From Diadema setosum (Eukaryota > Echinodermata > Echinoidea > Diadematoida > Diadematidae), in assembly GCA_033980235.1 (NCBI GenBank), contig CM067062.1:20265203-20329202 (forward strand): DNA of 64,000 nt, written 5' to 3'. This document shows, in pieces, positions 23,521 through 56,500 of the stretch. The notes under the pieces were generated by a model. It worked only from the letters and a program-made list of their open reading frames with translations, was not told where the DNA came from and ran no database searches. Positions within the stretch are counted from its first letter, which is position 1. Each line of letters starts with the position of its first letter. The position numbers and the translations under genes were made by a program.

Positions 23521-26500
23521 CTGGACAGACAAACAGACAAACAGATATAGTATATATACGTGTATATAATATATATAGTGGGATGATGCTGATACTCGTT
23601 CCACACGCCTCTCTGTCATCTTTGGAAGAATATTATCAAAACAATAATGAAGACAGAAGATGTTGCAGGATGGCGGCTGGTGGAAGCTTTCGACCTTGGG
23701 TCGATCTTCTTCAGCTTTATTGTCTGTTTATAATTTGTACTCAATGTATCATGTACATTACAAACTGACAGAATCTTACCTTCTCCATTTTCCTGGTCGT
23801 GGAAAGGTGATCCAAGTCCCTCTAAAGCAATCTTCATTTCGTTTGTCAAAGAAGGAAAGTCCATCACAGTTTTTCCCTCCTTGTTTTTCATTGACACCAG
23901 CCTCTGGCCTATATTGTGTGCAAGACATAAACATACTTGATTATGAAATATGGTTTCATCCTCTTCTGGCTGTTGTGACTACAGATTATAAACAATATTA
24001 TAATATCATAATAATATTATAATATTATAATATTATATTATATTAGTACTGGTCTCCATGAACAAATGGTACATTTGAATTCATTTCACACTGCTGTGAA
24101 CAAACAAGGAGTTTGAAAAAACTGATTCTTATTACAATTCACCCCGTTGAAGACTAGTCCCGAGTATACTTGGGCAGGTGTCCATAGGAAATGCATGTCT
24201 TGCAGCCCATCATTAGCCCATCTTTAACGGGTTTATAAATGCCACTCACATATGCCATTCCCAGATACGCCCTTTCCAGTTTAACCATACATAAGTCAAT
24301 ATATCCTAATGTCATTTTATAGACCTATAATTAGCATCTTTTGGATGTGATTTATGCATGAATCAATGCAACTCACCAGTACAATTATCTGCAGTAAACT
24401 ACCCACAAACTAGACAAGGCACTGTCAACAGATAAATGGTACATTATAGACTGTTTTGTACTATTTGAACTGTTCTGAAATCAAGACTAGATTTCAGTCA
24501 AACTTTCACTCACCTCCTACAGCAACTAGCAGCTTGACAACATCCACATGATTGTTGTGTACAGCATCATGAAGGACAGTGGTACCACATTCTGGACTGA
24601 GATAGAGATCTAACTTGGGAATATCAGTTTTTGATCCTGAAACAGAGATAATTGTTCCTCTTAATTTTCTTTGTTTTTTTAACACTTGAAAAAAGCTTTA
24701 TTACATATCCTGACTCGAAAATATTTTCCTCTCACATTCTTCTTTTTTAAAGATCAGTTAACATACAAGTTAAGAGCCACATCTAATTATACAACTGTAC
24801 TGTACAAACTGATTTTCCCTCAAAATTTTTATATTGCATCACATTACAAATTCGAGTTATACCCTTAAAATTATATATGCAGTGATAGAGTGGATCTTCA
24901 TTAATTGTGAAATTGAACAATATTTCATATGTAGGCTTTCCATCTTTATGACAAATTTGTACCAAATCAAAGGGAGATAGTGCACTTAGCTTGTCTGTTT
25001 ATGGAGAACTTTTATATATTCATAAATGTCAGAGAACTTTTATATATTCATAAATGTCAGAGAACTTTTATATATTCATAAATGTCATCACAGTAGGGCC
25101 TAGTGTGTTTGAATCACAAGACAAATGTGGGTGATCACGTGATTGTTACAAAAATGGGGAATGAATAGTATTGTTATTTCTAAACTGCAGAAAATCTTTT
25201 CTCCAGTCACCTGATGTCAATATATCAGGACGGAAATTGAGCAGCTCCTGAACGCATTGGATGTTGCCATGGTTACATGCTTCATGAAGTGGAGTCCATC
25301 CAGCATGGTCCCGGGCATTGACATCGATGTTTGGAGATGTCAGGAGCTGACGTACTTTGTCCACATGATTCTTGATACAGGCTACATGGAGAGGAGTTTC
25401 ACCTGATGGAATAGGAAATTCAGCAAGTTTGGATATCAGACGACTTTACCAACTCAGGAAAAACAAATCCACTTATAAATATAAGTATGAGTGATCATAT
25501 TTACTACAACTTTAAATGCAGTAGAATCAATTGATAGTTGGACGTTAGCAAATAGAATGTCCATTATGCTTGATGATGCTCACCAGAAAACAAGGTTTTA
25601 TCTCATTAAACATAAGGGAGAAATGACAATATCTAACCATATAGCTGTTCACATACTTTATTAAAACTATAAATATTATAATATCATATTTTATATTCGT
25701 GATACAAAATCTTACAGGAAAGGATATAGAGAACTTATTCTATTAAGACATGATTATCATAACCTAAAAACTTACTTTGTTGTAGCGATTACCCAAGGTA
25801 AAAGTAAGAGAATCAAACTGATCATTGCATGGTCAAAATATTCATTGAAATATCAGAAACATTTATTGTATGACAATCTCAGCATAATGCTTATTGTGTC
25901 TTTTTCCCTACAATCCATTAGGCTTGTTACAGAATCTCTAAATGATGTTCACTAATCTACACAGTCGAAGGACTTTGGTGAATACGTCACTCTATAAATC
26001 AATCCCCTCAAAAATGCTTCAGTGTCTCCAATTCAGGCAGAGGCAGTATATTTCAGATTTAGATTTTATTTATTTCATATCCAAGAAAAGTACAATTACA
26101 GTAAAATATACATTATTACATAAATTCAGTATGATATTGGAATACAGGAAAATACTCTGAACTAAAGAAGAATAAATGTTATGACTTTTAGAATCAATAT
26201 TGTTAAAAATCATATGGAGGAGGTTGCTAAAAAGCAGGGCTTGTAATTTGCATAAATAACAGCTAATCACTGAATTAATGAAATAAAGCAAATTGCTAAA
26301 AATGGATGAGAAATGACAAAACACACGCACAAAAACACAAACACACACAAACATGAGGCAGCTCTCTTGTAAAAGAAGGGTAACCTTCAAAGAAATATAT
26401 ACAGGAAGAGGCATAAACAAGACTAGGAAGGAGGTGAAGGACAAGAAGTTGAAGGGTATCAATACACATGCACATGACACACAAGATGAGAGGGCTGATG

Positions 26501-29500
26501 AAGTATTAAAGGAGCAATATAGACAGAGGACTGTGTTTTGAGACGATAAACGATTTTGATGACGAGAAAAATAAAAGGACTTGATTTTAGGGATTACATA
26601 AGTGTAACTCTTCTGCTATACAGGAATTTATTTTAAAAAAATGCATTGTTGTGTTGAGGAAAGTAGTTTACTCCATAGCACACTACTTTGACCACCATTT
26701 TTATTTGTCAGTTACCGGTACTCACCTTTCATATTCTTGCGATTGACTTTCACCTTCTTCTTTGGTGTAGTCTCCAGTTTTTCTGGTTGCTGAGAGCTTA
26801 CATTGACAAGAGTGAAATCATATCACTTTAATATCAGTCTGAGTGTTGGATATTTTGTCACACTTTTGGTATCAACTTTTACTGCAAAACAAGTAAACTG
26901 AATTGGTTTAATTACGCCCCCACACTCTTTCATAATTTTTTACTGGGAAAAACTCTAAAGAATTCAGAAATTTCACTCTTTGCTCAAATTTCAATACGAT
27001 AGCAGTTTAAATGATATAAAGAGAAATATATTCTTGTTCGTTGTTCATTACTAGCCTACAGGTTCATGAATGATGAAAATGGGTCATAAGAAAATGATTT
27101 TGGGTATTTGGGAACACACAGTCTTTCTACTTGTGTCAAAACATATGTTACAGTGGCTTGGAAATTGCAGTTGTATTATTGTTAGGAAGATTACTAAATA
27201 TTAATGGGAGACTACTCATGACCATGTACTGCACAGCATTGCTTTTCTGTAGAAATATTCTGTTCAACTATGTAATTACTAACATCTGTGCTCCATGCAA
27301 GTTGGTCAGGCTTGTTTGGATAACAAATAACCAGGGAAAAATAAGCCTACCTGGGTTGTTTTACAGGAGTTGGTACGAGGTCCATCTGTTCATCTTGTAC
27401 GTCTAGTACTGACAAGAGATAATTAATTGGCCAAAATGATGTAATGTTGCTTTTAACTGAGAATCTACTGAATTTAGATAGTACTGTTTTAATGATACTG
27501 ATTTAAGCATTGTTTATTTAATTCCTAGCCTTTTGTTGGAAGACAAATTATTCAATGATATCCAATTACAAAAGCTCATGTTCTGAATTCCTTTTTTCTT
27601 CTCTTCTTTCTGTGTCAATAAGTGATGATCGTAGGATAAAATAACACGAGAATGTGGATTCAATGTGAGAGTACAGAATGTTCTCAAGCTGATGAAATTT
27701 CAGGATCTGAACAAACAAACAAACAAACAAACAAAAACAAACAAACAAACAAACAAGGAGGAATGATACCTCCCAATTTGATGCAACCTTTTAGCTCCAA
27801 CAAATGTTGTTAAAGGAAATGGAATACAGTCAAACCTGTCTATAGCGGCCACCCAAGGGATACAGGAAAAGTGGCCGTTATAGACAGGTGGCCGCTATAG
27901 GCAGGTAACATGTATCGTCGTTGTATACATCTATATATACTTACATGTACATGTATGTGTGTACGTATGCACATGTGTGTATCATGCATAGAACAATGCC
28001 GGTGTTCATGAAATTGTTGCACAGTACATGTAGCATGTGCACAGTCATGAAGAAAGCTTAACACTAGTGCATCATTGTGACTGAATAAGTGATGAATGCA
28101 ACGGTGGCGATCACTGAACGTTGCCCAGGAATGACTGGCACGGCTAACAAGCAGAAAAACACGCTGAATTATCGGCTCGGCTACGGCTCCACCGGGTTTA
28201 TGGCCGCTATAGACAGGTTAAAATCTACCACGGGAAACAAAATTTGTGGCCGCTGGCCGCGTTAGACAGGCCAAACGGCCGCTATACACAGGGTCTTTAA
28301 CATTGCTTTTCTCTCGGGGGGATATTTCAGTGGCCGCTATAGACAGGTGGCTGCTATAGACAGGTGGCCGCTAAGGCAGGTTTGACTGTAGTTTTGGTTG
28401 AGATGAGGGATGCAGATTTTAACTTGACACAAGGTAATTAGAAACAACTTATAAAATTAAAGAGCAGACAATTCTAATAGGAATTCAAGGCTTATTTGAT
28501 GAAAATGGGTTTTGAAATGGCTGAGAAATCCACAAACAAAGTAAAACAAGGTGGTCTCAATAAAAGATGGGACCCACCTTTTATGATGACCTCTTTGTTT
28601 TTGAATATCTCAGCAAGATTTCAAAATCAATTTTAATCAAATAAATTTTGATTTCCTCTTAGAATATTATGCTCTTTCATGTTTTATAAGAGGCTTCTAA
28701 TTTCTCACAAAAAGTTGGAATCTTGAAGCCCCATTACCACTAAAACTATACTGTCCCTTTCAGGGAGAATGATACCAAACATATCTGGATTGAGTGAATG
28801 TAGCAATATCAGTAAAACACATCAGCAAAGTTTGAGGGAAATCTGACAATCCATTCAAAAGTTTGGAATTTTAAAGTTTTGGTACTGCCATCGCATTCTG
28901 CAGTGGCGTAACTCAAACTTCCCTAATATATGTTCTACTCCTGTTGCGTGCATTCACTCAATCTACATACACTTTGTGGGTATCATTCCAATATAAGAAT
29001 CAGATGTAGAGTGCTCTGTTACACAGAAGTTTTACCTGCTTCATTTTCTTGGTGACCCAAAGATGGTCCAGTTCCCTTTAAAGCAGTCCTCATGTCAGCT
29101 GTCAAAGGGAAGTCCCAGACAGTCTTTCCCTCGATGTTTTTCATTGACACCAACCTCTGACCTACATGGAGTATGTATAGGACAGAAATTAGATCCAATC
29201 AAAATACTCTCTCTTCTGTGCAGGTTGAATTTGAATACCAAATAGTAACCCTGCAGAATAATGATCCTCAAGTAAAGAAACAGTACATTTGGGTCTATTT
29301 CACATTGCTTGGAACAAGTAAATTGAAACCCAGGTATCCATTAATTCCATTCAATCATCAGTACTACACTTGCAGAAATCCCTAAAGTTTTCCAGCGTAG
29401 CTGCACAGTGTTGTAATAGTGGACCGGATTCAATGATGAACAGAGGACATAGTTGTTTAACGATAAAATGAACAACTTTAATCCACTATCACAAACTAGC

Positions 29501-32500
29501 GTCATGTAATGACTGCTGCTCTGACCGTATCACTCAAATATAGAATACATGGAATATGCGTACACTTGTGATAAATGTAGTGCGCTCACATAACACAACA
29601 TCCCCCTCCTTCTGAAAAGATACAATGACGAATATTTTTTAAACTGCACTTGTACATATGGAAACATTCACATTGATCTTCCAAGTAGTATAAATGTGAA
29701 TCTCTGACACAGAGTGCTGAAAAATGGAGGAAGCTTGTTTGAGATTTGCATAGATACATTGAATTATAATCAGGCAGGCAAATGAAATCTATTCTTCCTG
29801 AAACAGCTGGTCTCACAAATGCAATGTATTCAGCAACTCTTTTTTTTATCAGTATAAGTTTTACATTTCTCATATATACTAAACAACTCTCGACATATCT
29901 GGTATCGAAAGATAAGACGAATAAAACGATAACGTTATTCAAACTTATTGTCACAAAATGCATGCAGTTTAACACCAGCATATTTACAAATAATTTCACG
30001 TATATATCTTCGTGACATCTTTAATAATATGAGACACGAAGAATTATATTCATACGGAATGTATATATGTAATACAAACATAATGATTTAGCATTTGAGT
30101 TTGTACTCAGATTATCATCAACATAGGAAAAATATGCTTGTATGTTTGTCGTTTTTTTTTAAACATCCAGTTGAGATTAACTTTCGTGTGTGAAACTAGT
30201 GAACAGCTACATCATAGTTTCAATACACAAATGTGATGAACAGTTATACATGTACAGTGTATATAATATAGTATGCTATAAACATTTTGATAAATGTAGC
30301 ATATATCATAGTCATTATGGTTCCTGACTTAAATTTCAAATATTGTTTTGTGAAATAAAATGATGTGTATCACTTGGTTACACAAATGTGTTGTAAATAA
30401 ATCAACACTAAACATAATGAACATATTATTTACACTGACAATGCTGCTAGTTTATCTTCCAGCATTGCATTACTCTTGGTACCGCGATGGGGGTCTGACT
30501 TCACGTCCATATCGCGTTATGTACCGGGTAGAGACTGATTTACTATCAGATTGTCTTTGTCTTCTGTCTGGATGTTGTCTCCTTTCCTCACTCCTGTCGT
30601 CGTCTTCGAAGTGAACCCGTTTTGGAACTGTTGGCTTCGTTCCGGTTGGCATCTCTCTCAGGTGAGATCTATTTCTCCTCAAGATGCTACCGTTGGGAGT
30701 TGCTACTTCGTAGGATCTTGGTTCCTGACGTACTTTGCTCACTTCGGCAGGAAGCCAAGTGTTGTCTTTGGGATTCAGAACTCTCACTTTCTGTCCAATG
30801 TGCAGAGGTGGTAAATCTCTACCTCCATGCAAGTCGTGATTGTGTTTCATGTTCTCCTGTCTCTGAAACAACAAATCAGGCGTAGACGATTGTCTGGTCA
30901 GGTGGTGACTTGGAAGTGTTGTCCTGATTGGTCTTCCAAAGAGTAATTCAGCAGGTGATGGTAGGTTGGAGTCGATTGGTGTGGCACGAAAATGTAGTAG
31001 TGCTGTCTGGATGTCTTGTCCAGTTCTGGTACACTTGGTCATGATTCCTTTCACAGTTTGTACTGTGGTAAATGGAAATATGCGGTCTGCTATTGTTGCG
31101 TCAATGCGTTGATGCGCGTTGTGTCCATGCCAATGGCGCAGTGTGCTTGTGGTTGGCATGGGCACAACGCAACTTTTATTTTCATGAGATAAGATGACGC
31201 AGATTTAATTGATTCTTGACTTTGACTTTGGCTTGTGAGACAAATGGACGTGGACATAGTCTCTGCGAGCTCTTTGATGTCGAATAATCAAAAGTTCGAC
31301 TATATTTGTTATTCTGTATAGAGTCTAGACGCATTACGACATGTAGCTGAGGATAATGCGGATGATACGGAGTTTATACATGTATCGGCAGACTGAGACT
31401 GTTTGATTTGTTTAATAAAATCCATGCAACGTCAACTGGAGACTGTCAGCGTCATCATTAATCCAGCTTACAACAGTACCATGCGTTCAGCGAGTCCGTT
31501 GGATCTTGGATATCGTGGAGACGATGTAATGTGATCAATTGACCATTTCTCACACATCTCTTGGAATGGTCTTCCAACGAATTGTGGACCATTGTCTGAT
31601 ATCAGAGTTGCTGGTGGTCCGAAAAGACTGAAGATACCACTCAGTATGTTTGCAACTGCCGCACTGGATGTATCCGTCAACTTGCGAACGATTGGATACT
31701 TTGAATGGTAGTCGGTCACCAACAGGTATTCTTCCTTGTTGAAAGTAAACAAGTCAGTTCCAAGCTTCGTCCACGGCGAAGTTGGTATGTCGTGAGGTTG
31801 CAAGGGTTCTCTTTGTTGCTTGACCTGATTTTCTTGGCAGGCGTAGCAATTCTTTGAGATTTGCTCATGTCTTTATTGATGTTCGGCCAATATACGGTTT
31901 CCCTTGCTAGTCTGCGGGTACGTTCAATACCTTGATGACCCTGATGAAGTTGATTCAGGATGTCTTGTCTGAGGTTTGTGGGAATGATGACTTGATTGCC
32001 TTTGAAAAATACACCATCTGATACTCCGATTTCATCGCGGTATGGCCAAAATGTTCTGACCTCTCTAGGTACTTCCTTGATTGTGTCTGGCCAACCATTC
32101 GTGACGATTTGCCACAGAGCTCGCAAGGTAGGATCTCTCGACGTCTCTTGTTGCAGCTCATTTCTCTTCTTTTGTCCAAAGAAGATAAGATCAGTCTGTG
32201 ATATGTCGATTTCCTCACAGATCTCTTCCACATTGACATCAAGGGGAACGTCTTGATTCTTGCTTGGATTAGGCATTCTGCTCAAAGCATCTGATATGAT
32301 CATCGATTTGCCTGGCTTGTACTTGACATCATAGTCATAGCCTTGAATTTTGATGAGAAGTCTCTGCAAACGTGGTGGCGCACATCTCAGTGGCTTTCTG
32401 GTGATCATCTCTAAGGGTTTGTGATCAGTTTGGACAGTGAACTGGTTTCCGAACAGGTATGTGTGGAAACATTGTATTCCAAACACGAGGGCTAGCGTTT

Positions 32501-35500: not shown

Positions 35501-38500
35501 CTGGCCAGTCCAGGATAATACGCGTCTATCTGCGTCTTCTATTGTTATGTCAACAATGGATGTCAATGGATACGGTGCGCTCAGGTAATGCGAACTTGGT
35601 CTATTGTTACGTCAACAATGGAAGTCCTTGAATGAAACGCTCGGGTATTGCGCGTACTTGGATACGGTGCGCGTCGATAATGCTTGTTTACAGAACTGCA
35701 ACTGTCCAATGTGGCGAATGTCAGTGATTCGTGCGACGAAAATGTTCTGACAACATTTTGTACGAGCTACACAGCTATATCTTACGATGTAGAAACGAAT
35801 ATAGAATGCTCTGCAAAGCGTTCATCAATCCGATGATATGTATTCGTATCGTTATTTGCTGATGATCCCACCGCTGCCACCATGTTGTAATAGTGGACCG
35901 GATTCAATGATGAACAGAGGACATAGTTGTTTAACGATAAAATGAACAACTTTAATCCACTATCACAAACTAGCGTCATGTAATGACTGCTGCTCTGACC
36001 GTATCACTCAAATATAGAATACACTTAAAAGAAATCAATATCCTATTTTCACTGCGATTTATTAACATCCGTCACACTTTGATAGATACATGAATCATTC
36101 ATATAGTGATAAGTTCAAATGAGGAACTACTTTTACTTAAAGACCTCAGAATCAAGGTGCCACACAGAAGATTGAAATAGAGAGTATTTTGTATCAATAT
36201 GACATGGCCTGAAATCAAGAAGAGATTTTTTAATCAAACTTTCACTCACCTCCTACAGCAACTAGCAACTTGACAACATCCACATGATTGTTGTCTACAG
36301 CATCATGAAGGACAGTGGTACCACATCCTGGACTGAGATAGAGATCTAGCTTTGGAACATTGGTTTTTGATCCTGAAATAAAGAGGATTTCTCCTTTCAA
36401 TTTCCTCCCTTTCACACTATCAGAGAGTTATATCAAAATTCTCGGTAAACTTAAAAAAATATCTTGAATACCTTTAATTAAAAAAATCAGCTATCACAGA
36501 GCTTTTATCATATCTTCTTTTTAACACTTTCAAAAAGCATAATTTGAAATCACAACCTGAAAACATTTTCCTCTTACATCTCTTATTTGTAGAAAAAAAA
36601 AATCAGCTTATATTCAAGCTTATCAACAAAATATATATGCATATCTGTCATCCCTAAATACATTCATAAAGAAGCATACTGCATCACAGTATCATCCGGG
36701 GTATGAAGAGCTATAGGCCCTACCCTAAATTCTGACACAACAGATCTTTATTAAATGAAAACTTGAAAAATTCCCTGTTAATGCACAGTTTTTACCTTCA
36801 CACCAAACTCTAACCAACATTGACAGGATGCACTGCACTCTGCTCATCTGTTTACTGAAAACCTAAACTTATGTTAGGGCATGAATGTCATGTATGCGTG
36901 ATCTTGTGATTTTTTTCACAAAATTTTCTCTTCTCTCACCTGATGCCAATGTATCAGGATGGAAATTGATCAGCTCCTGTACACATTTGATGTTGCCATA
37001 GTTACATGCTTCATGAAGTGGGGTCCATCCAGCATAGTCCCGGGCATTGACATCGATGTTTGGAGATGTCAGGAGCTGACGTACTTTGTCCACATCATTC
37101 TTGATACAGGCTACATGGAGAGGAGTTTCACCTGATGGAATAGAAAGTTCAGCAAGTCTTGGTGATGATTAGGGAACAAGATTTATGTTATTTTTTTAAA
37201 CATAATTCAGGAAGGGCAATAATTAACCCACAGTTTTTCAAATAGTACAGCTAGTAATATGAAATTTCTTGAGAATGTTAGATAAAAACCTTTCATACAT
37301 GGATTATTGCAAATGAGAAAAGTACTTTGGGAGAGAGATCTTATAAGGTAAAAGTTAGAGAATCAAAAGTAATCATTGGTCAAATCAATCATATCATAAA
37401 CTTTTACTATATGAAATTTTTTTTTTTTTTGCACACCTTTTTTCGAAGAATCCATGAGACTTGTTACAGAATCTGTGAATTTTGCTGATTGTTCTAAACA
37501 GTCAATGGACTTTGGTAAATACATGTCAGCTCAAACAAGGAAAATGCTGCGCTCTGTAATATATATTGGTATATCATCCATTCTTGGAGCATAATGGAAT
37601 ACAAAGTTCCTCTACAAATCAAATCAAATGCTTCAGTGTCATCAAAGATGGAAGAGATACTATAATGTTGAAGAAAGCAGGTTGACCACTTCATTGCTTC
37701 ATTATATTGAAAAGTCCCTTACCTTTCCTGTTCCTGCGCGTGACATTCATGCTCTTCTTTGGTGTAGTCTGGGATCTTTCTTTTTGCTGGCTGCTTATAG
37801 TGACAAAAAAATGAAATTGTATCACTCAAACATATAAATGCTAATATAATAGCAGGTAATTCAAAATACAGAGAATTTTTTTTTTCTAGTTTGTTGCTTA
37901 GTTCTGGCTCTTATGTGCCGTGTCATGGATGATTGAAATGGGTCCTACAAAAAGATTTTGAGTATCTGGGAAAGCATCTCTTCCTACTCTTGACAAAAAC
38001 AGATAATATAGCGAACTCAACTGGATATTGAAGACACACTACTGCAGGCCTCGAATTTCGCCAGTTTTAGGGACAGGCAATTTTTGGTTTTAGGGGCACT
38101 CTCTCTCAAAATTTTTTAAGGGCAGCAAGAAAAAGTTGCAGTAAGCATGGTAATTTTGAGAGAGGGATTGCGGCAAGTAGATAGGGCATTGCAGCAAATT
38201 GCCTTTTGCCTCCCGGGTAATTCGAGGCCTGCTACTGTAAGAGAAATCGCTAATTTATAAGTTGTTATCGCAATATCAATTAATGTTTAAAGATATAGCA
38301 TTGTCTCGATGGAAATATCTGAACAACTGTGTAATCATTTACATCTCTGCCCCCATCCCCCAATAAAAAAAAAAGGTTGATGAGGCATGTGCAAGTATTT
38401 CCTTGAGGTATGTTTAAATAACAAAAAGAAACTAGAAATGTCACTTTGGCGACTGGTATGCCTCCGCCATAATGCATGATTTTCCCAATAGGTCTAGATA

Positions 38501-41500
38501 GTACATGTGGACACTGTGTGATTACATTTTCACAAATTGGCAAAATATTGGAATGACAAGTTTGTCACAAATGTGTTGAATGTTCACCTTCCTTGATGTA
38601 GGTTTAATTGGATGAATAGGAGAGCATGTATCTAGGGATTTAAGGACTTTAACTTGACTTTGACCCATTCATACATTTAGGCATTGAGTAATTTTCAAGG
38701 TACAGGTGTGGAGAAAAAGTTCAATTTCTGAATTGAATAGTAAATTGTTACCATTTTCATCTGGCCCTTGACCCTAAAATTCATAAGATAAATACTTTCA
38801 GGTAGAACATGCATAATATGTACTAAGTTTTAAGGTAACTTGAGCCACTTCCAAGATATGGAGGAAAAAGTTAGTTCAGCACTTTCACTTATCTTTGACC
38901 TTTTGACCTTTGAGGCAAAAAGAGAAAAAAAAAAACTTTCCAGAGAATTTCTATTAGGTTAAACACGCATACACCAAGTGTAAAAAAATAACCCTGCTGG
39001 CATTGCATAAATATGAGGGTAATAGTAACATTTTGAAGTCTTGCACTTGACCTTTGACCCCTGACCTTCGACCCCATGAACCCTACATTCTCTAGATAAT
39101 CACTTCCAGTCAGTACATGTATATACTATGTTCCATGAAGATACCTTGAACAATTTTCCAAGGTACGGAGAAAAAAAAAGAAGTTTTAATATTTTTACTT
39201 GACCTTTTGACCTTTGACCTTTGACCTCATGACCCAAACTGTCACCAGAGAATCTTAATTGGGTAATACATGTATACACTAAGTTTCAAGAAAATCTCTT
39301 CAGGCATTCAATAGATATGGTGGAAATAGTGAAATTTTATGTATTTGACCCTGACCTTTTGACCTTTGACCTTTGACCTCATGACCCAAACTTTCACCAG
39401 AGAATCTTAATTAGGTAAAACATGTATACACTAAGTTTCAAGAAAATATCTTCAGGCATTCAATAGATATGGTGGAAATAGTGAAATTTTATGTATTTGA
39501 CCTTGACCTTTTGACCTTTGACCTTGAGCATGTGCACCCAAAAGTTGATAGGCACAACTTCACCCCCTAATACACATACATGCCAAGTTTCGTTAGGATA
39601 CCTCAACAGGTTTCGATAGTTACCTTGTCCACAAAATTCATTACGGACGGACGGAAGGACGGACGGACGGACGGACGGACGGACGGACGGACGGACGGAC
39701 GGACGGACGGACGGACGGAAGGACGGACGGACGGACGGACGGACGGACGGACAACCCGAAAACATAATGCCTCCGGCACCACTTCGTGGCGGATGCAAGC
39801 CTACCTGCACAGTTTTGGAGGAGCTGGTATGGGATCCATCTGTTCATCTTGTATGTCTAGCACTAAAGAGAGACAATTAATCAGATAGTATGATAAGCTA
39901 TCATTTTTTTCTATCAAAATCAATGGAATTAAAGTGTACATTAAAATTCTTATTCATATTCTTATTCTTAAAATTCTTATGATAGTATGATAAGCTATCA
40001 TTTTTTTTTTCTATCAAAATCAATGGAATTAAAGTGTACATTAAAATTCTTAGGATATTGTTTAATTCCTCGCCTTCATTTTGAAAACAAGCTATTTCAC
40101 CATTTCATTGGGTAACTATCAATTTCTCTTTCTCCTTTCTTCTAATACTCTAAGAGAAGATCAAAACTCAAATATATATGTGAATTGAAGGAATGCAGAA
40201 ATATTAGCAGAATACATCAGCAAAGTTTGAGGAAAATTGGACAATTGCAAAATGTTATGAAAGTTTAAAGTTTAGATACAGCCATTGCTGGATGAGAAGA
40301 CTAAAGCAGTACTTTGTGACAAGACATATGGACAATGCTATAAAGAAAATAAAATTCAACATATTTTCACTCTTTGACATAGAAAGGGACTTGACTTACA
40401 TCTTTCAGAAAATGGGGAACATTACCATAACATGTCATTAACGAGTTGAGGAATGTGTACTTTTCATACTAAATAGAAATTTTATGGAATTCTCTTTATA
40501 TTTACTTTATATTGTTACACAATGTGGTGTCTCAAGCTGTAGTAGTTTTCTCATCCAGCAATGGCTGCACCGAAACTTTAAAAATTCATAACTTGCAGAT
40601 GTGTGTTACTACTCTTTCTGCATTCACTCAATCAACATGTATATTTGGGTTTCATTCCCCTTTAAGTGATGTTTGGAGTATACAACATCATTATCACTTT
40701 GGATTAAATGTGAGAGTAAATTAAGATGATCTAAAAATAGTGGAGTTTTAAGATCTAAACTAGAAATGTCGCTAAGGCGAATGGTATGCCTCCGCCATAA
40801 TGCATGAGTCTCCTAATAGGTCTATAGTACATGTAGACAATGTGTGATTACCGTCATTTTCACAAAATTGGCAAAATATCAAAATGACAAGTTTGTCACA
40901 AATGTGTTGAATGTTCACCTTCCTTGACCTAGGTTTAATTGGATGAATAGAAGAGCATGTATTTGGGGATTTAAGGACTTTAACTTGACTTTGACCCATT
41001 CATAAGTTTATGCATTGAGTAATTTTCAAGGAATGGAGAAAAAGTGCAATTTCTGTATTGAAAAGTTCATTGTTACCATTTTCATCTGGCCTTTGACCCT
41101 AAAATTCATAGGATAATCACTGTCAGGCACAACATGCAGAAATATGTAGTAAGTTTCAAGATAACTTGAGCCACTTCTGAGATATGGAGGAAAAGGTTAG
41201 TTCAGCACTTTCACTTGCTCTTTGACCTTTTGATTTGAGGCAAACAAAAAAAAAAAGAAGAAAAAAGAAAGCTTCCAGAGAATCTCTATCAGGTTATACA
41301 TGCATACACCAAGTGTAAAAAGAAATAATAATCCTGCTGGCATTGCATAAATATGAGGGAAATAGTAACATTTTGAAGTGTTGCCCTTGACCTTTGACCC
41401 ATGAACCCTGAATTCTCTAGATAATCACTGCCAGTCAGTACATGTATATATACTATGTTCCACGAAGATACCTTGAACAATTTCCAAGATACGGAGAAAA

Positions 41501-44500
41501 AGTCAAGTTTTAATATATTTACTTGACCTTTTGACCTTTGACCTCATGATGCCAAACTTTCACCAGAGAATCTTAATTGGGAATACATGTATACACTAAG
41601 TTTTAAGAAAATATCTTCAGGCATTGCATAGATATGGTGGAAATAGTGAAATTTTACGTATTTGACCTTGACCTTGAGCATGTGCACCCAAAAGTTGATA
41701 GGCACAACTTCACCCCTAATACACATACATGCCAAGTTTCATTAGGATACCTCAAAAGGTTTTTTAGTTACGCTGTCCACAAAATTCATTACGGACGGAA
41801 GGACGGACGGACGGACGGACTGACGGACGGACGGACAGCCCGAAAACATAATGCCTCCGGCACCACTTCGTGGCGGAGACATAAAAACCTCAACAACAAT
41901 AACAAGGAGGAATGATTCCAGATAGGGTCCTTTATTGCGATTTCAAAGGTATTACTTCATCTGAAGTCGAGTGACAAGCTTTGACAAAAAAGAATCATGA
42001 CAGGATTTACTTTCAAAAGTAAGAAAATGAACTTATCAAATCAACACCCTTTATTTCGCTACTGACCTGTAATTTGCTATTAAAATCAAGAGGACAGAAT
42101 ATTAACTTAATTATTCTCCAGACTACATAAGGATCATCTTAAATGTACTTTGGCAATCTAGAGCAATATCAGTAAAGTTTTCAGATTACACACATTTAGT
42201 TCCCGCTTTAATACAATCTTCCAGCCCAAACAAAATAGGCCTACAGTCGAGGAAAACAGTCAGATGAGGAGTGCTTTCGACTGTTTCACAGAAGAAGAGA
42301 CATTTCTTTACACAAAGTTTTTCAAAGCTTTACCTGCTTCATTTTCTTGGTTACCCAAAGATTTTCCCTCTAAAGCAGCCCTCATGTCTGCTGTCATGCA
42401 GAAGTCCCAGGCAGTCTTTCCCTCGCTGTTTTCCATTGACACCAACCTCTGACCTATGTACAGGACAGAAACAGATCCAAACCAAAACACTGGCCATTCA
42501 GACTGATCTTGGTGCAGGTTGAATTGGAACACCAAATGGTTAATACTGTAGTGTAATGATCCCCACGAAGAAAAGGCACATTTGGGTTCATTCTATATAA
42601 ATTGCTGGTAATGAGTAAAGTGAAATCCAGATTTGCATTCATTCAACCATCAGAACACCACTTGCAAAAGTCCCCAAAGTTTTCCAGCTTAGCTGCACTG
42701 CACTTAAAGAAATCAATATCCTATTTTCACTGCGATTTATCAACATCTGTCAAACTTTGATTGATGCATGAATGATTAAGAGATAAGTTTAAATAAAGAA
42801 GTACTTTAACTTAAAGACTTCAGAAGGTGCTATATACAGAAGATTGAAACAGAGAGTATTTTGTATCAATATGACATGGCCTGAAATTAAGAAGAGATTT
42901 TTGAATAAAACTTTCACTTACCTCCTACAGCAACTAGCAGTTTGACAACATCCACATGGCTGTTGGCAACAGCATCATGAAGGACAGTAGTACCACATTT
43001 TGGACTGAGATAGAGATCTAGCTTTGGGACACTGGTTTTTGATCCTGAAACAGAAATTATATTTCCTTTCAATTTCCTTTTTTTAACGCTTTCAAAGAGC
43101 TTAATTAGAAATCTCAACTTGCAAAACTAGAACTATCATTCAATGTGATTAATATCCCCACCTAACACTGAGGGAGTTAGCTCAACTAGCAATAGTTACT
43201 TTGTATGCTTATTGAAAAACCAACAACAATTACCATGACAATGTATTGTTCAACATTGAATAAATGCATATTTTGCTCACTGATAATTACATGTGCCATA
43301 TCTCAGGTCAAGTGCTCAAAACCTGTGTAAAGTAAATAAATCAACAATTTCTATGATTTTCATTAAAAAATGGTGCTACCAGGCAACACAATGCTTGACA
43401 TTAAGAAAAAATGAAGTTTTCACAACTATATATCATAGCTGTCACATGTGCCAAATTTCGAGTCAAATGCTCAAAAGCTGAGGGAGTTAGGTGAGTTCAC
43501 AATATCATTGTATGATTTCATTCAAAATATGCTGTTACCATGGCAACACATATTCCAACAATGACAAAAGGTCAATTTTGCAGAGCTCGGTAATATGGTG
43601 ATAATATGTGCCAAATTTGAAGCCAAATGCTAAAAAAAGAAAAGAAATAAGAGTTAGCTGAATTCCAAATTTTTATGATTTCCAATCAAAATATACTGTT
43701 ACCATCCCAACGCAATGTTCAACAATGACGAAAGATGAACTTTGCACATCTTTGTAATATAGCCATCACATGTGCCAAATTTCAAGCCAAATGCTGAAAG
43801 ACTGAGGGAGTTAACAGAATCAATTTTTTTTTTTTTAATGATTTTCATTGAAAATATGCTGTTACCATGGCAACACATTGTTCAACAATGACGGAAGAAT
43901 AAATTTGCACATGTATGTACTATAGCAGTCACATGTGCCAAATTTCAAGCCAAATGCTCAAAAACTCAGGGAGTTAGCTAATCCACAGTATTTTTGTATG
44001 ATTTTTCATTCAAAATATGCTGTTACCATGGCAACACATTCTTCACACCAACGACGAAAGATTAAGTTTGCACATCTTTGTACTATAGCGGTCACATGTG
44101 CCAAATTTCAAGCAAAATGCTCAAAGACTGAGGGAGCTAACTGAATCCACAGTATTTTTGTATGCTTTTAGTGAAAAGATGCTGTTACCATGGCAACACA
44201 TTGTTCAACAATGACGAAAGAATAAGTTTGCACATCTATGTACCATAGTAGTCACATGTGCCAAAATTCAAGGTAAATGCTGAAAGACTGAGGGTGTAAG
44301 CTGAGACCACAATATTTCTGTATGCCTTTTATTGAAAAAATGCTGTTACCATGACAACGCATTGTTCAATAATGACGAAAGATCATCACATCTACGTATT
44401 ATAGCGGCCACATGAGCCAAATTTCAAGCCAAATGCTCACAGACTGACGGAGATATCTGAATCCACAGTATTTTGGTATGATTTTCATTCAGAATATGCT

Positions 44501-47500: not shown

Positions 47501-50500
47501 CTGAGTCACAGTGGTAAACATGTTATCGCGCACTTGTAGCAAGAGTACGCGTACTTGTAACAAAGGTTTGCGCACTAAGCAAGCGTTCTCGCATTTAGGT
47601 TGGCCATGCGTCCAGTAAATACTGATGCATGGCTGGCCGTGCATCCAGTAAAAACTGATGCATGCTCGTTTACGGCAAGCCAAAAGGAAATGCATCCAGT
47701 AATTTTGTCATCGGGTAACACGATAGAAAAATGGGTTTTTGACAAGAAAATTACCCATTCTATAAATCAGATAACGCACATGTCTTTTCGTGCGTCAGTC
47801 GGAATATAGTGTGCATGCGGTAACTATGGAATTTAGCCTAAACCCACTCGGCTTCGCCTCGTGGGTTAAGCATTCCATAGTTACCTTATGCACACAATTC
47901 CGACTGACGCACTCAGACCTGTGCGTCATTTGTATATTATGTGCCACTCGTACGTTCGCATGTCCGACTCAGTCGACGGCGTGCCAACTTCGCACACTCT
48001 GCTCAACAAACAAAGCCGCCAAAACCGATTGATAAATCGCCAATCCCACGGTACAATCAAAGCGTTTCTCGCGCTTTTGTTCCTCTCACATACGGCTTGC
48101 ATTCTATGTGGTGAATGACTATCAAGCGACTAGATTTTGCATGTACACTTTAAGTTTCTGTCACTATTTTATGTGCAAAAGTCGTTCTTTTACAGTAATG
48201 TAGCAACTGGTAATTCGAAGAAAAATTGAAAATAGAATTGTTATACATTGTATATGGAAGCAAAGTTTGGCATTCCTCTTAACAGAAATTTGTAGAAGTT
48301 ATACAGATTGGAAAAACAAAATTCTTTCTCTAAAGCATGACTATCTTTGTGTCTCAGAATAACGTGGCACACAGGGGGTTTCCACCATGGCACATAAAGA
48401 GTTAATTGTAAAATTGAACTAGAAATGTCGATATGCCGATTGGTATGCCTATGCCATAATGCATGATTTGCTTGACCTTTGACCTGGCCTTTTACCCAAT
48501 GACCCCAAAATTCCCTAGATAATCACTGCCAGTCAGTACTTGCATAGTTATATACTATGTTTCATGAAGATACCTTGAACCATTTCCAAGATACAGTGAA
48601 AAAAGTGAAATGTTAACATTTTCACTTGACCTTTGACCTCATGACCCGAAACTCTCACCAGAGAATCTTAATTTGGTAGTATACACTAAGTTTCAAGAAA
48701 ATATCTTCAGGCATTGCATAGATATGGGGGAAATAGTGAAATGTGGAGCATAATTGACCTTGAGCATGTGCACCCAAAAAAGGCACAACTTCACCCCCTC
48801 ATACACATACATGCCAAGTTTCATTAAGACACCTCAAAAGGTTTTTTAGTTACGCTGTCCACAAAATTGATTACGGATGAATGACGGACGGACAGACAGA
48901 AGAACAGACAACCTGAAACCATAATGCCTCTGGCACCACTTCGTGGCGGAGGCATAAAAATTCCATATGTGGACTTTCATCATAATTCCCACCCACATTG
49001 AAAAGATGTAATGCACTTTCCTCATCTGTTTAAGAGATCTTCACTTACATTTTGTTCACAAATGTCAAGAGGTATTGATTATCAAATGCAGTACAAACGT
49101 AGATGATCATGTGAGCTATAAGATCATAACATAAGAAACAAGGAAAAGTAGAAATTAAGCGGTGCGTAATACATGTCCCCGCCTGAATTAGCATTTTGTA
49201 GCAAAATGTACAATATAGGTAAAAACTCAAGGTCAAAGGTCAAAGAAGTCAAAGGTCATGTGTGTAGAAGTTTTGAAGCCCTCACCTAGTGCCATCACAT
49301 AAAGCAAACGGAAGTGAAATCGGGTTAGAAATGGCGAAGGAGTAGCATTTTGTAGCCAATGTACAATATAGGTCAAAAATCAAGGTCAAAGGTCAAAGAA
49401 GTCAAAGGTCAAAATTCTGTGTACAAGTTTTGAAGCCCTCACCTAATGCCATCATATAAAGCAAACGGAATCGAAATCGGGTTAAAAATGGCGAAGGAGT
49501 AGCATTTTGTAGCCAATGTACAATATAGGTCAAAAATCAAGGTCAAAGGTCAAAGAAGTCAAAGGTCAAAATTCTGTGTAGAAGTTTTGAAGCCCTCACC
49601 TAGTGCTATCACTTAAAGCAAACAGAATCGAAATTGGGTTAGAAATGGCGAAGGAGTAGCATTTTGAAGCAAAATGTACAGCATAGGTCAAAGGTCAAGG
49701 TCAAAGGTCACAACTGAAATTCTGTGTAGAAGTTTCAAAGCTCCCATGTAGTGCTATCATATAAAGCAAACAGAATCAAAATTGGCTAATAAATGACAGA
49801 GAAGTAGCAAATTGAACATTTTGATCACACACGGACGCACACACACAGACAGACGGACGGACGGACGGACACACGGACACACACTCGTACGGAGCCCGTT
49901 TCATAGTCCCCTGCTCAAACTCGTTCGGCGGGGACAAAAAAATCTTTTCTTCTCTCACCTGATGCCAACAGGTCAGGACGGAAATTCAGCAGCTCCTGTA
50001 CACATTGAATGTTGCCATAGTTACATGCTTCATGAAGTGGAGTCCATCCAGCATAGTCCCGGGCATTGACATCGATGTTTGGAGATGTCAGGAGCTGACG
50101 TACTTTGTCCACATCATTCTTGATACGGGCTACATGGAGAGGAGTTTCACCTGATGGAATAGAAAGTTCAGCAAGTCTTGGTGATGATAAGGGAACAAGA
50201 TTTTTTTTTTTAAACATAATTCAGGAAGGGCAATAATTAACCCACAGTTTTTCAAACAGTAGAGTGATATGAAATTTCTTTAGAATGTTAGATAAAACCT
50301 TTTCATACATGATTATTGCAAATGAGAAAAGTACTTTGGGAGAGAGATCTTATAAGGTAAAAGTTAGAGAATCAAAGGTAATTATTGGTCAAATGCAATC
50401 ATATCATAAACTTTTACTACATGAAAAACTTATTGTTGTTTCTCACACCTTCTTTCAAAGAATCCATGAGACTTTGCAACTGATTGAAAAACTGCCCTAG

Positions 50501-53500
50501 CTACGACGAAAGAATTTCATGGATCCATGAGACTTGTTACAGAATCTGTGAAATTTGCTGATTGTTTGAAACAGTCAATGGACTTTGGTGAATACTTGTT
50601 AGCTAAAACAAGGAAAATGCTGCATTCTGTAATGTATTGGTATATCATCCATTCTTGGAGCATAATGGAATACAGAGTTCCTCTATAAATCAAATACCTA
50701 TAATGCTTCAGTGTCAACTAAGGCAGATATATTGTAATGTTGAAGAAAGTAAGTTGATTACCTCATAGCTCAGAACATTGACCACTATTATATTGGTAGG
50801 TCCCTCACCTTTCATATTCTTGCGCTTGACATTCATATTCTTCTTTGGTGTAGTCTGTGATCTTTCTGGTTGCTTGCTGTTTACAGTGACAAAAATAAAA
50901 TCACTCAAATATTTGTCTGAATATTGGATATTTAGCCTTAGTTTTGGTACCAATCTCTACAGTAAAACAAGGAAACTGCATTGGTATAATAAGGTCTATG
51001 CTCTCTCTTATCAAAGTTTTGTTTTGTTTAAATATCAAAAGAACTTTGCAATTTCAGGCTGTGCTCAAATTCTAATTCCATGACAGTTGATTCAAAATAT
51101 TTACAGAGAAACATTTTCTAGTTTGTTGCTTAGTTTTGGCTTATAGGTTCATGGATGATGAAAATGTGTCCTAGATTATGATTTTGAGTATTTAAGAAAG
51201 TACTTTTTTTCTACTCTTTGCAGAAACAGATAATCGGCGAATCGGATATTGAAGATGAACTATTTTTAGGGAAATCACTAGATTTTAAATAAAAGATTAA
51301 TAAGGACTTAATTATTATTACATTAATTAATGTCTAAAGGTACAGCATTGTCTCAATGGAAATATTTGTACCAACTGTGTAATCTTTTACATCTCTATTC
51401 CCCCCCCCCTCTGCCCCCCCCCCCAAAAAAAAAGAAGGTTTATCAGGCATGTGCTAGTATACAAATGATGCACAGGATAGAGTGCGTTAGTGTAGGCGAA
51501 GTGCACTCGAGGGTATTTACAATTGTGAAACATGCACGAGGCGAAGCCGAGTGCATGTTGCACTACATTGTAAATACCCGAGAGTGAGCTACGCCTACAC
51601 TAACGCCACGAAATAATCCTGTGCATCATTTGTTTTATAAAATGGGTCGAAAATTCGAAAACTAACATCATTTTTCAGCGTTTTTCACGTACCTTTGTGG
51701 GTCAAGACGTCCGAAGATGTTCGTCCCAAACTTTTACGCACGTCGCACTCGCGGAAGTCCCGCACATACAGTATAATAAGTATAATGGGGGGTTGGGTTT
51801 CCGGACACCCGCATGAAAACTTACTTATTTTACATAGAATATGCACCCTTTACCTTAAAGACTTGATATAGACTCCTCATATAGGCCTACTAGACAACAT
51901 ACTCTGAAAACGGCGTGAGAATTAACCTGCTAAATCATTGGATTTGCTCTTCAAAGTGACTCCATGTACGCGTCCGGTCCCATAACGCTTGGTCTACTGT
52001 ACTGAACAAAGTGTACGTATAGTACAGTATACGTACGTACGCCACATATGTTATGCACAAGGGAAGACAGGCCGGCCGGCCGGCAGCCCGAACTAGAAGT
52101 TGTTTACAGGATTGACAGCGCGTACGCGTATGCATGCAATTCATCAAAGGAGCCGCCGCGCGCACAGACGATCGGCAATCTACCATAGGATTACAGGCAG
52201 TGCAATTGTACTGAAGTAAAGGAAGGAGGTGTGTCTCATTTCAGCGCTTCCTATTGGCTACATTCTTGAACCCATTTTATAATATTTCCTAGAGGTATGT
52301 TTGGATAACAAAATATCATGGAAACACAAGCCTACCTGCATGGTTTTGGAGGAGTTGGTATGGGATCCATCAGTTCATCTTGTGTGTTTAGTACTGATGA
52401 GAGGCAATTGATCAGATAGTATACGATATTGCTTTTTTTCTAGGGAAATCTAATTTAAACAGTAAAGTTGTATTGCTTAATTAATTCCTCACCTTAATTT
52501 TGAAGACAAGCTATTTCATCATTTCATTAACTATCAATTTCAATTCCTCCCTTCTTCTTACACTCAAAAAGGAAAAAGAAACCCAAATATTATAAATTAA
52601 CCCTAATCCCACCGGGTTTTTTGAGGGACTTGGGGCTTTTTGGCCCCACCTTCAGATCTCGGTCATGGATCGCGCGATCCTCGCAAAAATTTGCATTAAG
52701 GTAGAGGCTAATGTAATCTACAGGACTGTATAGTAAGATTTTTCAAATTTTAATTTATGTATTTCATATTAATTGAATTATGCTAATTTATGCAAAAATA
52801 ATTTTTTCCCTATAAATAAAAAAATAAAGCTCCAAGACTTCTAATTTTTGGCGAACATATTCTTTTCAATATCCTCAACAATAATATTGAAGCTAAAATT
52901 CGGCTTCATAATTATTTCTGATGTATTTTTGGTTCATTGAATTTTTTATGTATTTCTTTGTTTTCTTACTTTTTGTTTTTGTTGGTTTTTTCGTCAAAAT
53001 TTGTCGCAGAAACTTTTTACAGCATAATCAGGCTAAAATATATCATTATCAGCCACTGAAAGTAAAAATATTTATTATTATATAAATTAATTGCAAAAAC
53101 ACAATTTACATTGGATTTGTACACAAAATCATGTTTTTGAGCAATTTTTGGGTCGACAAATTTTTTAAAGGGGCGTGGCTTCAAGACAGTATGCCCGGGA
53201 GCGACAAATTTGGTCTCAAAATTTGCGCGATACTTGAAAGAAAAAAGTCATAAAATGTTGCGGTGAGAGCATCACACGTTGCGAATAATCACACGAAATG
53301 TCAAGGGGGGGCCAAAATGCCCCCCGTGGGAATATGGTTAAAGGAATGCAGCAATATCAGCAAAATGCATCAGCAAAGTTTGAGGAAAATTGACAATTGA
53401 CAAAAGTTATGAATGTTTGATGTTTTGGTTCAGCCATTGCTGGATGAGGAGACTACAACAGTAGGCCTACTTTGTGACCCGTATGGAGAATGCTAAAAAA

Positions 53501-56500
53501 AAAAAAAAAAATGTAAAGAATACATTTTCACTCTTCGACTTAGATAGCCACTTGACTTACCTCTCTCATAAAACGGGAAATAACCCTTTATGTCAGTAAC
53601 AAGTTGATGGAATTCTTTTTATATTTTCTTTATCTCGTTCCACATATGTGGCATCTCAAACTGTAATGGTTTTCTCATCTAGCCATGGCTGCACTGAAAC
53701 TTTAAAATTCAGAACCTTTCAAGAGATTGTGTGATTTCCTCAAAACTTGCAGATGTGTGTTACTACTCTTTCTGCATTCACTCAATCAACATGTATATTT
53801 GGGTTTCATTCCCCTTTAAGTGATGTTTGGAGTATACAGCATCATTATCAGTTTGGATTTAATGTGCGAGTAAAGATGATCTAAAAATAATGGAGTTTTA
53901 AGATCTAAAAAACCTCAACAACAATAACAACAGGGAGGAACGATTCCAGATAGGGTCCTTTATTGCGATTCGAAAGTATTATTTCATCTGAAGTCAATTC
54001 ACAAGCTTTGACAAAAAAAGAATCATGACAGGAATTACTTTCAATATTTTGAAAATGAACTAATCAAATTAACACCCTTTAATTCATTACTGACCTGTAA
54101 TTTGCTAAATCAAGAGGACAGAATATCAACTTAATTTTTCTCCACACTACATAAGGATCATTCTAAATGCACTTTCGCAATCTAGAGTAATATCAGTAAA
54201 GTTTTCAGATTACACAAATTTAGTTCCTGCTATAAAATCTTCCAGCCCAAACAATTAGGCCTACAGTCGAGGAAAACAGTCAGATGAGGAGTGCCTTCAG
54301 CTGTTTCACAGAAGAAGAGACATTTCTTTACACAAAGTTTTTCAAAGCTTTACCTGCTTCATTTTCTTGGTTACAGAAAGATGGTCCAGTTCCCTTTAAA
54401 GCAGACCTCATGTCAGCTCTCAAGAAGAAGTCCCAGACAGTCTCTCCCTTGCTGTTTTTCATTGACACTAACCTCTGACCTATGGATGTACAGGACAGAA
54501 ATTAGATCCAAATTAAAATACTCTCCCTTCTGTGCAGGTTGAATTTGAATACAAAATGGTAACACTGCAGAGTACACGTAATGATCCCCACAAAGAAACA
54601 GTTCATTTGGGTCTATTTCATATTGCTTGGAGCAAGTAAAGTGAGACCCAGATTTGCATTAATTCCATTCAGTCATCAGTAAAACACTTGCTGAAATCCC
54701 CAAAGTTTTCCAGCGTAGCTGCACAGCACTTAAAGGAAATCAATATCCTACTTTCACTGCAATTTATTAACATCTGTTACACTTTGAAAGATACATGAAT
54801 GACTATATAGTGATAAGTTCAAATGAGGAACTACTTTTACTTAAGGACCTCAGAATTAAGGTGTCATACAGAAGATTGAAATAGAGAGCATTTTGTATCA
54901 ATATGACATGACCTGAAATCAAGATGAGATTTTTGAATCAAACTTTCACTCACCTCCTACAGCAACCAGCAACTTGACAACATCAACATGGTTGTTGGCA
55001 ACAGCATCATGGAGGACAGTGGTACCACATTTTGGACTGAGATAGAGATCTAACTTTGGGACACTGGTTTTTGATCCTGAAACAGAAATTATATTTCCTT
55101 TCAATTTCTTTCTTTTAACACTTTCAAAGAGCTTCACTAGAACTCACCACTTGAAAAAAAAAATCATGATCATAAATTCCTGTCATTTAAAAAAATCAGC
55201 TATTGTACAGCTTATGAACTAAATCTACTTGTATATATCTGTCAATATCAAGCAAAATTATGTTCATGTACAGTGAGATATTCTCTCTTTTTTGCCAGAA
55301 ATTACATTACAGCAACAATTTAACTCTCATATAAACAGTTTTTGAATTCTGAAGTAAAATTGCTGGGATACAGCCAATCTTTATAAATTGTAAAACTGAA
55401 ACATTCCATACGTGGACTTTCATCATGATTATGAGCAATTCCCACCCACAATGAAAAGATGTCAAGAAAGTATTGATTATCAATGCAGGACAAACATAGA
55501 TGATCATGTGAGCTATAAGATCGTGACTCTAAAGAAAAGAAAATCTTTTCTTCTCTCACCTGATGCTAACGTATCAGGACGGAAATTCAGCAGCTCCTGC
55601 ACACATTCAATGTTGCCATAGTTACATGCTTTATGAAGTGGCGTCCATCCAGCATAGTCCCGGGCATTGACATCGATGTTTGGAGATGTCAAGAGCTGAC
55701 ATACTTTGGCCACATCATTGTTGATACAGGCTACATGTAGAGGAGTTTCACCTGATGGAATAGAAAGTTCAGCAAGTCTTGGTGATGATTAGATGACAAG
55801 ATTTTTTTAAAAAACATAATTTAGGAAGGGCAATAATTAACCCCCAGTTTTTGAAACAGTAGAATAATATGAAATTTCTTTGGTGAATACATGTCAGCTC
55901 AAACAAGGAAAATGCTGCGCTCTGTAATATATTGGTATATCATCTATTCTTGAAGCGTGACGGAATACAGAGTTCCTCTATATATCAAATACCTATAATG
56001 CTAAGGAAGAGATATTATAATGTAAGTTGAAGAGAGCAGGTTAATTACTTCATAGCTCAGAACCTTGACTTTCATTATATTGAAAAGTTCCTTACCTTTC
56101 CTATTCTTGCAGCTGACATACAAGCTCTTCTTTGGTGTAGTCTGGGATCTTTCTGGTTGCTTGCTGCTTACAGTGACAAAAATAAAATCATATCACTCAA
56201 ATATTGTCCCAATATTGGATATTTAGTCTCAAATTTGGTACCAATCTCTACAGTAAAACAAGGAAACTGCATTGGTATAATAAGGTCTATGCTCTCATCA
56301 AAGTTTTGTTTTGTTGAAATATCCAAAGAATTTTGCAATTTCAGGCTGTGCTCAAATTGTAATTCCATGACAGCTGATTCAAAATGTTTACAGAGAAATA
56401 TTTTCTAGTTTGTTGCTTAGTTCTGGCTTATAGGTTCATGGATGATGAAAATGTGTCCAATTTTATGATTTTGAGTATTTAGGAAAATATTTTTGTTCCT

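Follow-up and report, generated by a model that had tools for sequence, protein, structure and literature searches.

The window analysed here, a 64,000-nucleotide stretch of the Diadema setosum genome (C4:20265203-20329202), carries on its minus strand a gene related to SLF1 in which the ankyrin repeat domain (ARD) is encoded by four successive cassettes. The cassette block runs from 56163 to 23780 and comprises 19 exons, each of them free of in-frame stops and bordered by AG and GT, with five exons in cassettes A, B and C and four in cassette D. Every cassette includes an ANK1-2 exon of 192 nt and an ANK3 exon of 123 nt (both phase 1-1), preceded by a Lys-rich linker exon (68-71 nt, phase 2 to 1) and followed by a post-ANK exon (120-129 nt, phase 1-1); a Pro-rich linker exon (58 nt, phase 1 to 2) completes A, B and C, and none follows D. 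Exons u8-u7-u6-u5-u3-X, the 19 cassette exons and E1-E2 join into 3732 nt, or 1244 codons, with a sole, terminal stop. The exons are listed in gene order with window coordinates, and are compared with SLF1 of D. antillarum (P0003) and with an uncharacterized D. antillarum protein of 780 amino acids that contains three ARDs (P0001).

63146..63318, minus: exon u8, N-terminal half of the SLF1-like helical region, phase 0 to 2 (67% identical to P0003; splice sites)
62551..62700, minus: exon u7, phase 2 to 2 (homology to P0003, splice sites)
61867..62050, minus: exon u6, phase 2 to 0 (homology to P0003, splice sites)
61010..61163, minus: exon u5, phase 0 to 1, same acceptor as the canonical gene (comparison with the canonical gene model)
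59467..59633, minus: exon u3, phase 1 to 0, near-identical to the canonical exon (96.2% DNA identity over 186 nt; synonymous substitutions per site, dS, 0.088)
58046..58137, minus: exon X, phase 0 to 2, VSYYFY... (phase fit, SLF1 match)
56096..56163, minus: cassette A Lys-rich linker exon, phase 2 to 1 (open frame, splice sites)
55560..55751, minus: cassette A ANK1-2 exon, phase 1 to 1, K where human SLF1 has E847 (frame, splice sites, residue alignment)
54954..55076, minus: cassette A ANK3 exon, phase 1 to 1 (frame, splice sites)
54354..54479, minus: cassette A post-ANK exon, probable cap, phase 1 to 1 (frame, splice sites)
52336..52393, minus: cassette A Pro-rich linker and phase-adaptor exon, phase 1 to 2 (frame, splice sites, frame tests)
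50809..50876, minus: cassette B Lys-rich linker exon (frame, splice sites)
49959..50150, minus: cassette B ANK1-2 exon (frame, splice sites)
42922..43044, minus: cassette B ANK3 exon (frame, splice sites)
42334..42453, minus: cassette B post-ANK exon, in frame, 6 nt shorter than in A and C (frame, splice sites)
39805..39862, minus: cassette B phase-adaptor exon (frame, splice sites, frame tests)
37723..37790, minus: cassette C Lys-rich linker exon (frame, splice sites)
36940..37131, minus: cassette C ANK1-2 exon (frame, splice sites)
36250..36372, minus: cassette C ANK3 exon (frame, splice sites)
29036..29161, minus: cassette C post-ANK exon (frame, splice sites)
27351..27408, minus: cassette C phase-adaptor exon (frame, splice sites, frame tests)
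26726..26796, minus: cassette D Lys-rich linker exon (frame, splice sites)
25211..25402, minus: cassette D ANK1-2 exon (frame, splice sites)
24514..24636, minus: cassette D ANK3 exon (frame, splice sites)
23780..23908, minus: cassette D post-ANK exon, joined directly in phase 1 to E1 as in canonical SLF1 (frame, splice sites)
23216..23520, minus: exon E1, start of the C-terminal half after the ARD insert, phase 1 to 0 (53% identical to P0003, 84% to P0001)
21684..21980, minus: exon E2, C-terminus and stop (46% identical to P0003, 78% to P0001)

The original prediction, made from the letters of this window, had placed the array at 23780..56163; these limits were exact, its nineteen stop-free, spliceable exons in one frame of 1244 codons were reproduced when the exons were joined, and its four five-exon cassettes (D with four) were recovered with the same exon types. 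Exon X (58137-58046) has the phases needed to link u3 with cassette A, and its sequence corresponds to the VYYYFY segment of SLF1. By sequence homology, the exons of the helical region correspond to P0003 378-698 upstream of the ARDs and to 913-1061 downstream, and this Nse5-like region is interrupted by the ARD insert. The array sits at the place matching the ARD insert of human SLF1, which splits an SLF2-binding, Nse5-like solenoid according to PMC9708086. Beyond the window, on the 5' side, are an exon resembling P0003 338-398 (88%) and another resembling 265-314 (50%).

A genome search with P0003 identified a complete canonical SLF1 (ANKRD32, BRCTx) on the plus strand of the same chromosome (C4:19,620,495-19,642,598), from which the nearer end of the window gene is some 0.64 Mb away. 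The 20-exon model of this canonical gene encodes 1062 residues (1007/1062 identical to P0003 position by position) and has the BRCT region together with one ARD cassette. Among the best 58 of 288 candidates in a genome search with the multi-ARD protein P0001, strong SLF1-type ARD matches were those of the window (four) and of the canonical locus (one), the remaining matches elsewhere being weak. Because an intact canonical SLF1 is separately present and strong ARD matches are limited to these two loci, the window gene is a diverged SLF1 paralogue and not the canonical SLF1 of D. setosum. Separate tandem genes were rejected as an account of the four cassettes, since the locus has one set only of upstream and of downstream exons, and strong SLF1-type ARD matches are confined to the window and the canonical locus (best 43 of 457 and 58 of 288 genome candidates).

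From the helical region to the C-terminal half, by way of Lys-rich linker, ANK1-2, ANK3 and post-ANK, the exons of the paralogue have the order and phases of canonical SLF1, with identities to P0003 of 32-98% by exon; the paralogue differs in its four ARDs (canonical SLF1 has one), its three additional adaptor exons, its diverged C-terminus and its lack of a detectable tandem BRCT. The N-terminal tandem BRCT of SLF1 binds phospho-RAD18. No counterpart of it (canonical residues 1-250) was found in the paralogue within the window and 110 kb upstream (best expectation value, E, 0.76), whereas the control search of the canonical locus gave E 4e-54 to 5e-15; genome-wide, matches to P0003 residues 1-315 were at the canonical locus only, among the best 43 of 457 candidates. 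Thus, the predicted SLF1 with a multiplied ankyrin domain is borne out as to SLF1-type ARDs multiplied in frame, but the gene is a paralogue that apparently lacks the tandem BRCT, and a one-ARD SLF1 is intact 0.64 Mb away.

Outside u3, and where unsaturated, dS between paralogue and canonical gene is about 0.6-2.0. Exon u3 and some 10 nt of flank at either end (59461-59646) are 96.2% identical to the canonical exon, with dS of 0.088 versus 0.66-1.66 in the other upstream exons compared, which marks this stretch as an exon-sized gene-conversion tract.

The 58-nt Pro-rich linker exon has the properties of a phase adaptor. The post-ANK exon of canonical SLF1 ends in phase 1 and is spliced to E1, in a model that has no Pro-rich linker exon; tandem copies from Lys-rich linker to post-ANK therefore set phase 1 against phase 2, and the 58-nt exon restores the phase. 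One adaptor separates each cassette from the next, cassette D is followed by none, and when all three were omitted from the joined frame, 20 stops appeared, the first at codon 491. All copies remain 58 nt long despite pairwise differences at 7-12 of 58 sites, and counterparts lie between the ARDs of P0001 (A5 11/16, B5 11/16 and C5 17/18 residues identical). As to the origin of the adaptor, the canonical locus holds no convincing match (best E 0.27). Because the frame breaks without the adaptors, which would be needed only where cassettes are read in series, multi-cassette mRNAs are favoured.

PMC11551741 describes SLF1 as a reader of H4K20me0 through an ARD of four ankyrin repeats, the fourth a cap; the human ARD contacts the H4 tail via E808, D838, W842, E847, N850, D874 and D881, and binds nucleosomes at 1-5 uM, whereas a W842A/E847A/N850A/D881A mutant does not bind. 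Human residue numbers were placed on the cassettes by the spacing of these published numbers. Six of the seven contact residues (E808, D838, W842, E847, N850 and D881), shared with canonical SLF1, are retained in cassettes B, C and D. In the 21-row residue table, which omits the S. purpuratus cassette without ANK3 (Spur_X3_1), position 874 is C in 18 rows and D in three amphioxus rows, and N850 is lost in one row, a cassette of S. purpuratus LOC100892411. The earlier count of about twelve repeats is correct at three per cassette in four cassettes, but falls short of the human ARD, with its fourth repeat (PMC11551741), and the post-ANK exon probably encodes this cap.

The predicted fold is that of a four-repeat ARD of the H4K20me0-reader type, and the top structural matches of P0001 module 3 include the BARD1 ARD; a Foldseek search with the three-ARD model gave ankyrins and DARPins among the 50 matches listed and was not discriminating. 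The ARDs are separated by linkers of about 50 residues, which are low-confidence stretches in the P0001 model. The partner domains of TONSL and BARD1 differ from those of SLF1. TONSL and BARD1 share the H4K20me0 reader mechanism of SLF1 and have one four-repeat ARD each (PMC11551741), in contrast to four in the paralogue.

Aligned introns differ between cassettes by 7-25%, and two are greatly enlarged: intron 2 is 6.9 kb in B versus 0.5-0.6 kb in A, C and D, and intron 3 is 7.1 kb in C versus 0.5-0.6 kb in A, B and D. Cassette exons are conserved beyond chance, because they differ less than the introns, strongly between C and D (19/309 sites in ANK1-2 and ANK3 exons versus 76/373 in introns) and modestly between A and B (22/309 versus 230/2253, with 31 gap openings). 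In the ANK1-2 and ANK3 exons of these pairs, 21 of 41 changes are non-synonymous versus a neutral expectation of 71-75% (p 0.0007-0.006, on the assumption that the A-B and C-D pairs are independent), a pattern indicative of purifying selection on ANK1-3. The ratio of non-synonymous to synonymous substitution rates (dN/dS) between cassettes, over all exons, is 0.47-0.78 in six pairs, which amounts to moderate constraint. Against the canonical gene, dN/dS is 0.10-0.44 in seven upstream exons (338-398, u8, u7, u6, u5, u3 and X; 0.10 in 338-398), 0.19-0.26 in the four ANK1-2 exons and 0.38 in post-ANK exon A4, with dS saturated in three of the four ANK3 comparisons and in D4, and with post-ANK exons compared for A and D only.

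Several other features lie among the cassettes. The C3-C4 intron contains a Gypsy/Ty3-like retrotransposon, named by eye (30470-34940, minus strand), with gag-, protease/reverse transcriptase- and integrase-like open stretches, and the B2-B3 intron contains a diverged array of a repeat of about 160 nt (43346-47096). An (ACGG)n-type tract (39643-39753) follows B5 in gene orientation at a distance of about 50 nt, with similar pieces at 41791 and 48864. Upstream of cassette A, 56974-57474 and 56594-56621 resemble the exon 4-5 introns of A, B and C and a 28-nt piece of Lys-rich linker; they are possibly a lost fifth cassette, or alternatively a dispersed repeat, as 57155-57446 also matches 62798-63108.

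Multiple ARDs are also found in gene models of other sea urchins. P0001 has the array type, linker kind and C-terminus of the paralogue, with three complete ARDs instead of four. S. purpuratus models have three ARDs, one without ANK3 (P0002), or two (P0004 and P0008); among the SLF1 models of this species, X3 has three cassettes (one without ANK3) and X5 two. L. variegatus P0121 has two ARDs. S. purpuratus X3/X5 and L. variegatus LOC121408831 resemble the paralogue in that an SLF1 protein carries ARDs in tandem, two or three of them, but they retain the BRCT (Pfam) and their cassettes form a separate clade. P0008 (S. purpuratus LOC100892411) is an SLF1-like paralogue model with BRCT and two ARDs, apparently without the helical middle region, as judged by eye. 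A single ARD is present in D. antillarum SLF1, a contig protein (P0005), one acorn worm protein and three amphioxus proteins. The survey, which consisted of protein searches with P0003 300-705 (five clusters, from the best 7986 candidates by common words) and P0001 566-780 (two clusters), is thin in taxa, being without named starfish, sea cucumber and brittle star proteins.

In the cassette tree, from which the near-duplicates Spur_X5_2 and Bflo_bel_1 were left out, the window cassettes group with those of P0001 (100/98) in a clade sister to the canonical Diadema ARDs, and the S. purpuratus and L. variegatus cassettes form another (98/95); a second tree, built without Spur_X3_1, gave the same two clades (98/96 each). 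Approximately unbiased (AU) tests of two groupings, cassette D with the third P0001 cassette and all four window cassettes by themselves, gave p 0.33 and p 0.19, respectively, and do not settle which cassettes of the two Diadema species correspond by position. A single origin of all multi-cassette arrays received AU p 0.022, for a group named after the tree was seen and with concerted evolution a possible mimic; the ARD expansion is either recurrent or homogenised within lineages. No multi-ARD SLF1 is described in the titles and abstract starts of the open-licence PubMed Central papers that the literature searches listed, and the original prediction, made without a search, knew of no description either, but predicted multi-ARD proteins of D. 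antillarum, Strongylocentrotus and Lytechinus do exist in databases. The component parts are already known; the four-ARD arrangement would be a new form of them if the gene is expressed as predicted.

We consider it moderately probable that the locus is a working SLF1-like paralogue with four tethered ARDs, produced from serially read cassettes. An SLF1 copy, lying on one chromosome with the canonical gene, would have diverged and apparently lost the RAD18-binding tandem BRCT, while its ARD cassette was amplified inside the split Nse5-like, SLF2-binding region, each added cassette being made readable by a 58-nt adaptor between the post-ANK exon (phase 1) and the next Lys-rich linker (phase 2). 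The solenoid would then bear a series of ARDs, with linkers of about 50 residues, that could grip several H4 tails together, and the in-frame array could plausibly give a multivalent reader. With the helical region holding SLF2-SMC5/6, cassettes B, C and D would use avidity to bind the unmethylated H4 tails found in new chromatin; for cassette A a role as weak reader or spacer is likely, and the BRCT-less product would be independent of RAD18. We infer H4 binding, SLF2 binding and multivalency from the predicted protein.

A number of observations weigh against a working four-ARD product. The gene model is 5'-partial, no counterpart of P0003 314-337 was found in the paralogue, and the D. antillarum model P0001 begins within the array; transcription, and a single mRNA with all of the cassettes, are predictions from the joined frame. 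Cassette A has K at E847, the sole such row among 21, and its histone pocket is probably weakened although the other five of the six residues are kept; in ANK1, cassette B has R at a position that is C in the seven sequences aligned with it. Post-ANK exons have no detectable constraint between cassettes (about 34/43 changes non-synonymous), and dN/dS relative to the canonical gene indicates loose constraint in E1 (0.72), E2 (0.47) and linker A1 (0.54). Which two cassettes are most alike depends on the intron (B and C for intron 1, A and B for introns 2 and 4, A and C for intron 3), a mosaic that suggests exchange between cassettes, such that the A-B and C-D pairs are perhaps not fully independent. 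Finally, when X was linked to just one cassette (exons 1-4) and then to E1, the frame stayed open in 4/4 cases (675-679 codons).

This last result bears on the strongest rival, unlikely but with a real claim, in which the locus is a splice-choice cluster: each transcript would include one cassette or a variable subset, usually giving a one- or two-ARD factor with interchangeable readers. In every cassette exons 2-4 begin and end in phase 1, a cassette with its adaptor is frame-neutral, and the S. purpuratus X3 and X5 models differ in cassette content; in a one-cassette mRNA, however, adaptors would be useless, yet all three have kept 58 nt and their splice sites, with counterparts between the ARDs of the D. 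antillarum model, and they also argue against a mutually exclusive exon cluster. It is improbable that the gene is a decaying paralogue without useful protein, its open frames a remnant. Such decay would fit the missing BRCT, E847K in cassette A, the lack of detectable constraint in the post-ANK exons and the D. antillarum model that starts inside the array, but not 1243 codons without stop or frameshift, non-synonymous changes below neutral in the ANK1-3 exons, exons better kept than introns or the dN/dS of 0.10 in upstream exon 338-398; the earlier argument that pseudogenisation would not leave nineteen frames open holds, and the adaptor exons add a second. False duplication in the assembly is hardly credible, because the introns diverge and carry cassette-specific inserts (those of B and C), and a related species, D. 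antillarum, has a multi-cassette model.

The locus shows how a cassette that does not by itself preserve the frame (phase 2 to 1) can be amplified, namely with the help of the 58-nt adaptor exon. Tentatively, echinoids may have made SLF1 multivalent repeatedly, with the BRCT-less paralogue of Diadema loading SMC5/6 by H4K20me0 avidity alone, independently of RAD18 and damage-induced ubiquitin signalling, and with the adaptor holding the array in frame and letting copy number drift freely. SLF1 ties H4K20me0, a mark of post-replicative chromatin, to SMC5/6, and a four-reader protein apparently without the RAD18-binding part would separate two recruitment signals and would test whether reader copy number sets SMC5/6 recruitment. 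The idea is testable because sea urchin embryos, with their fast early S phases, are tractable.

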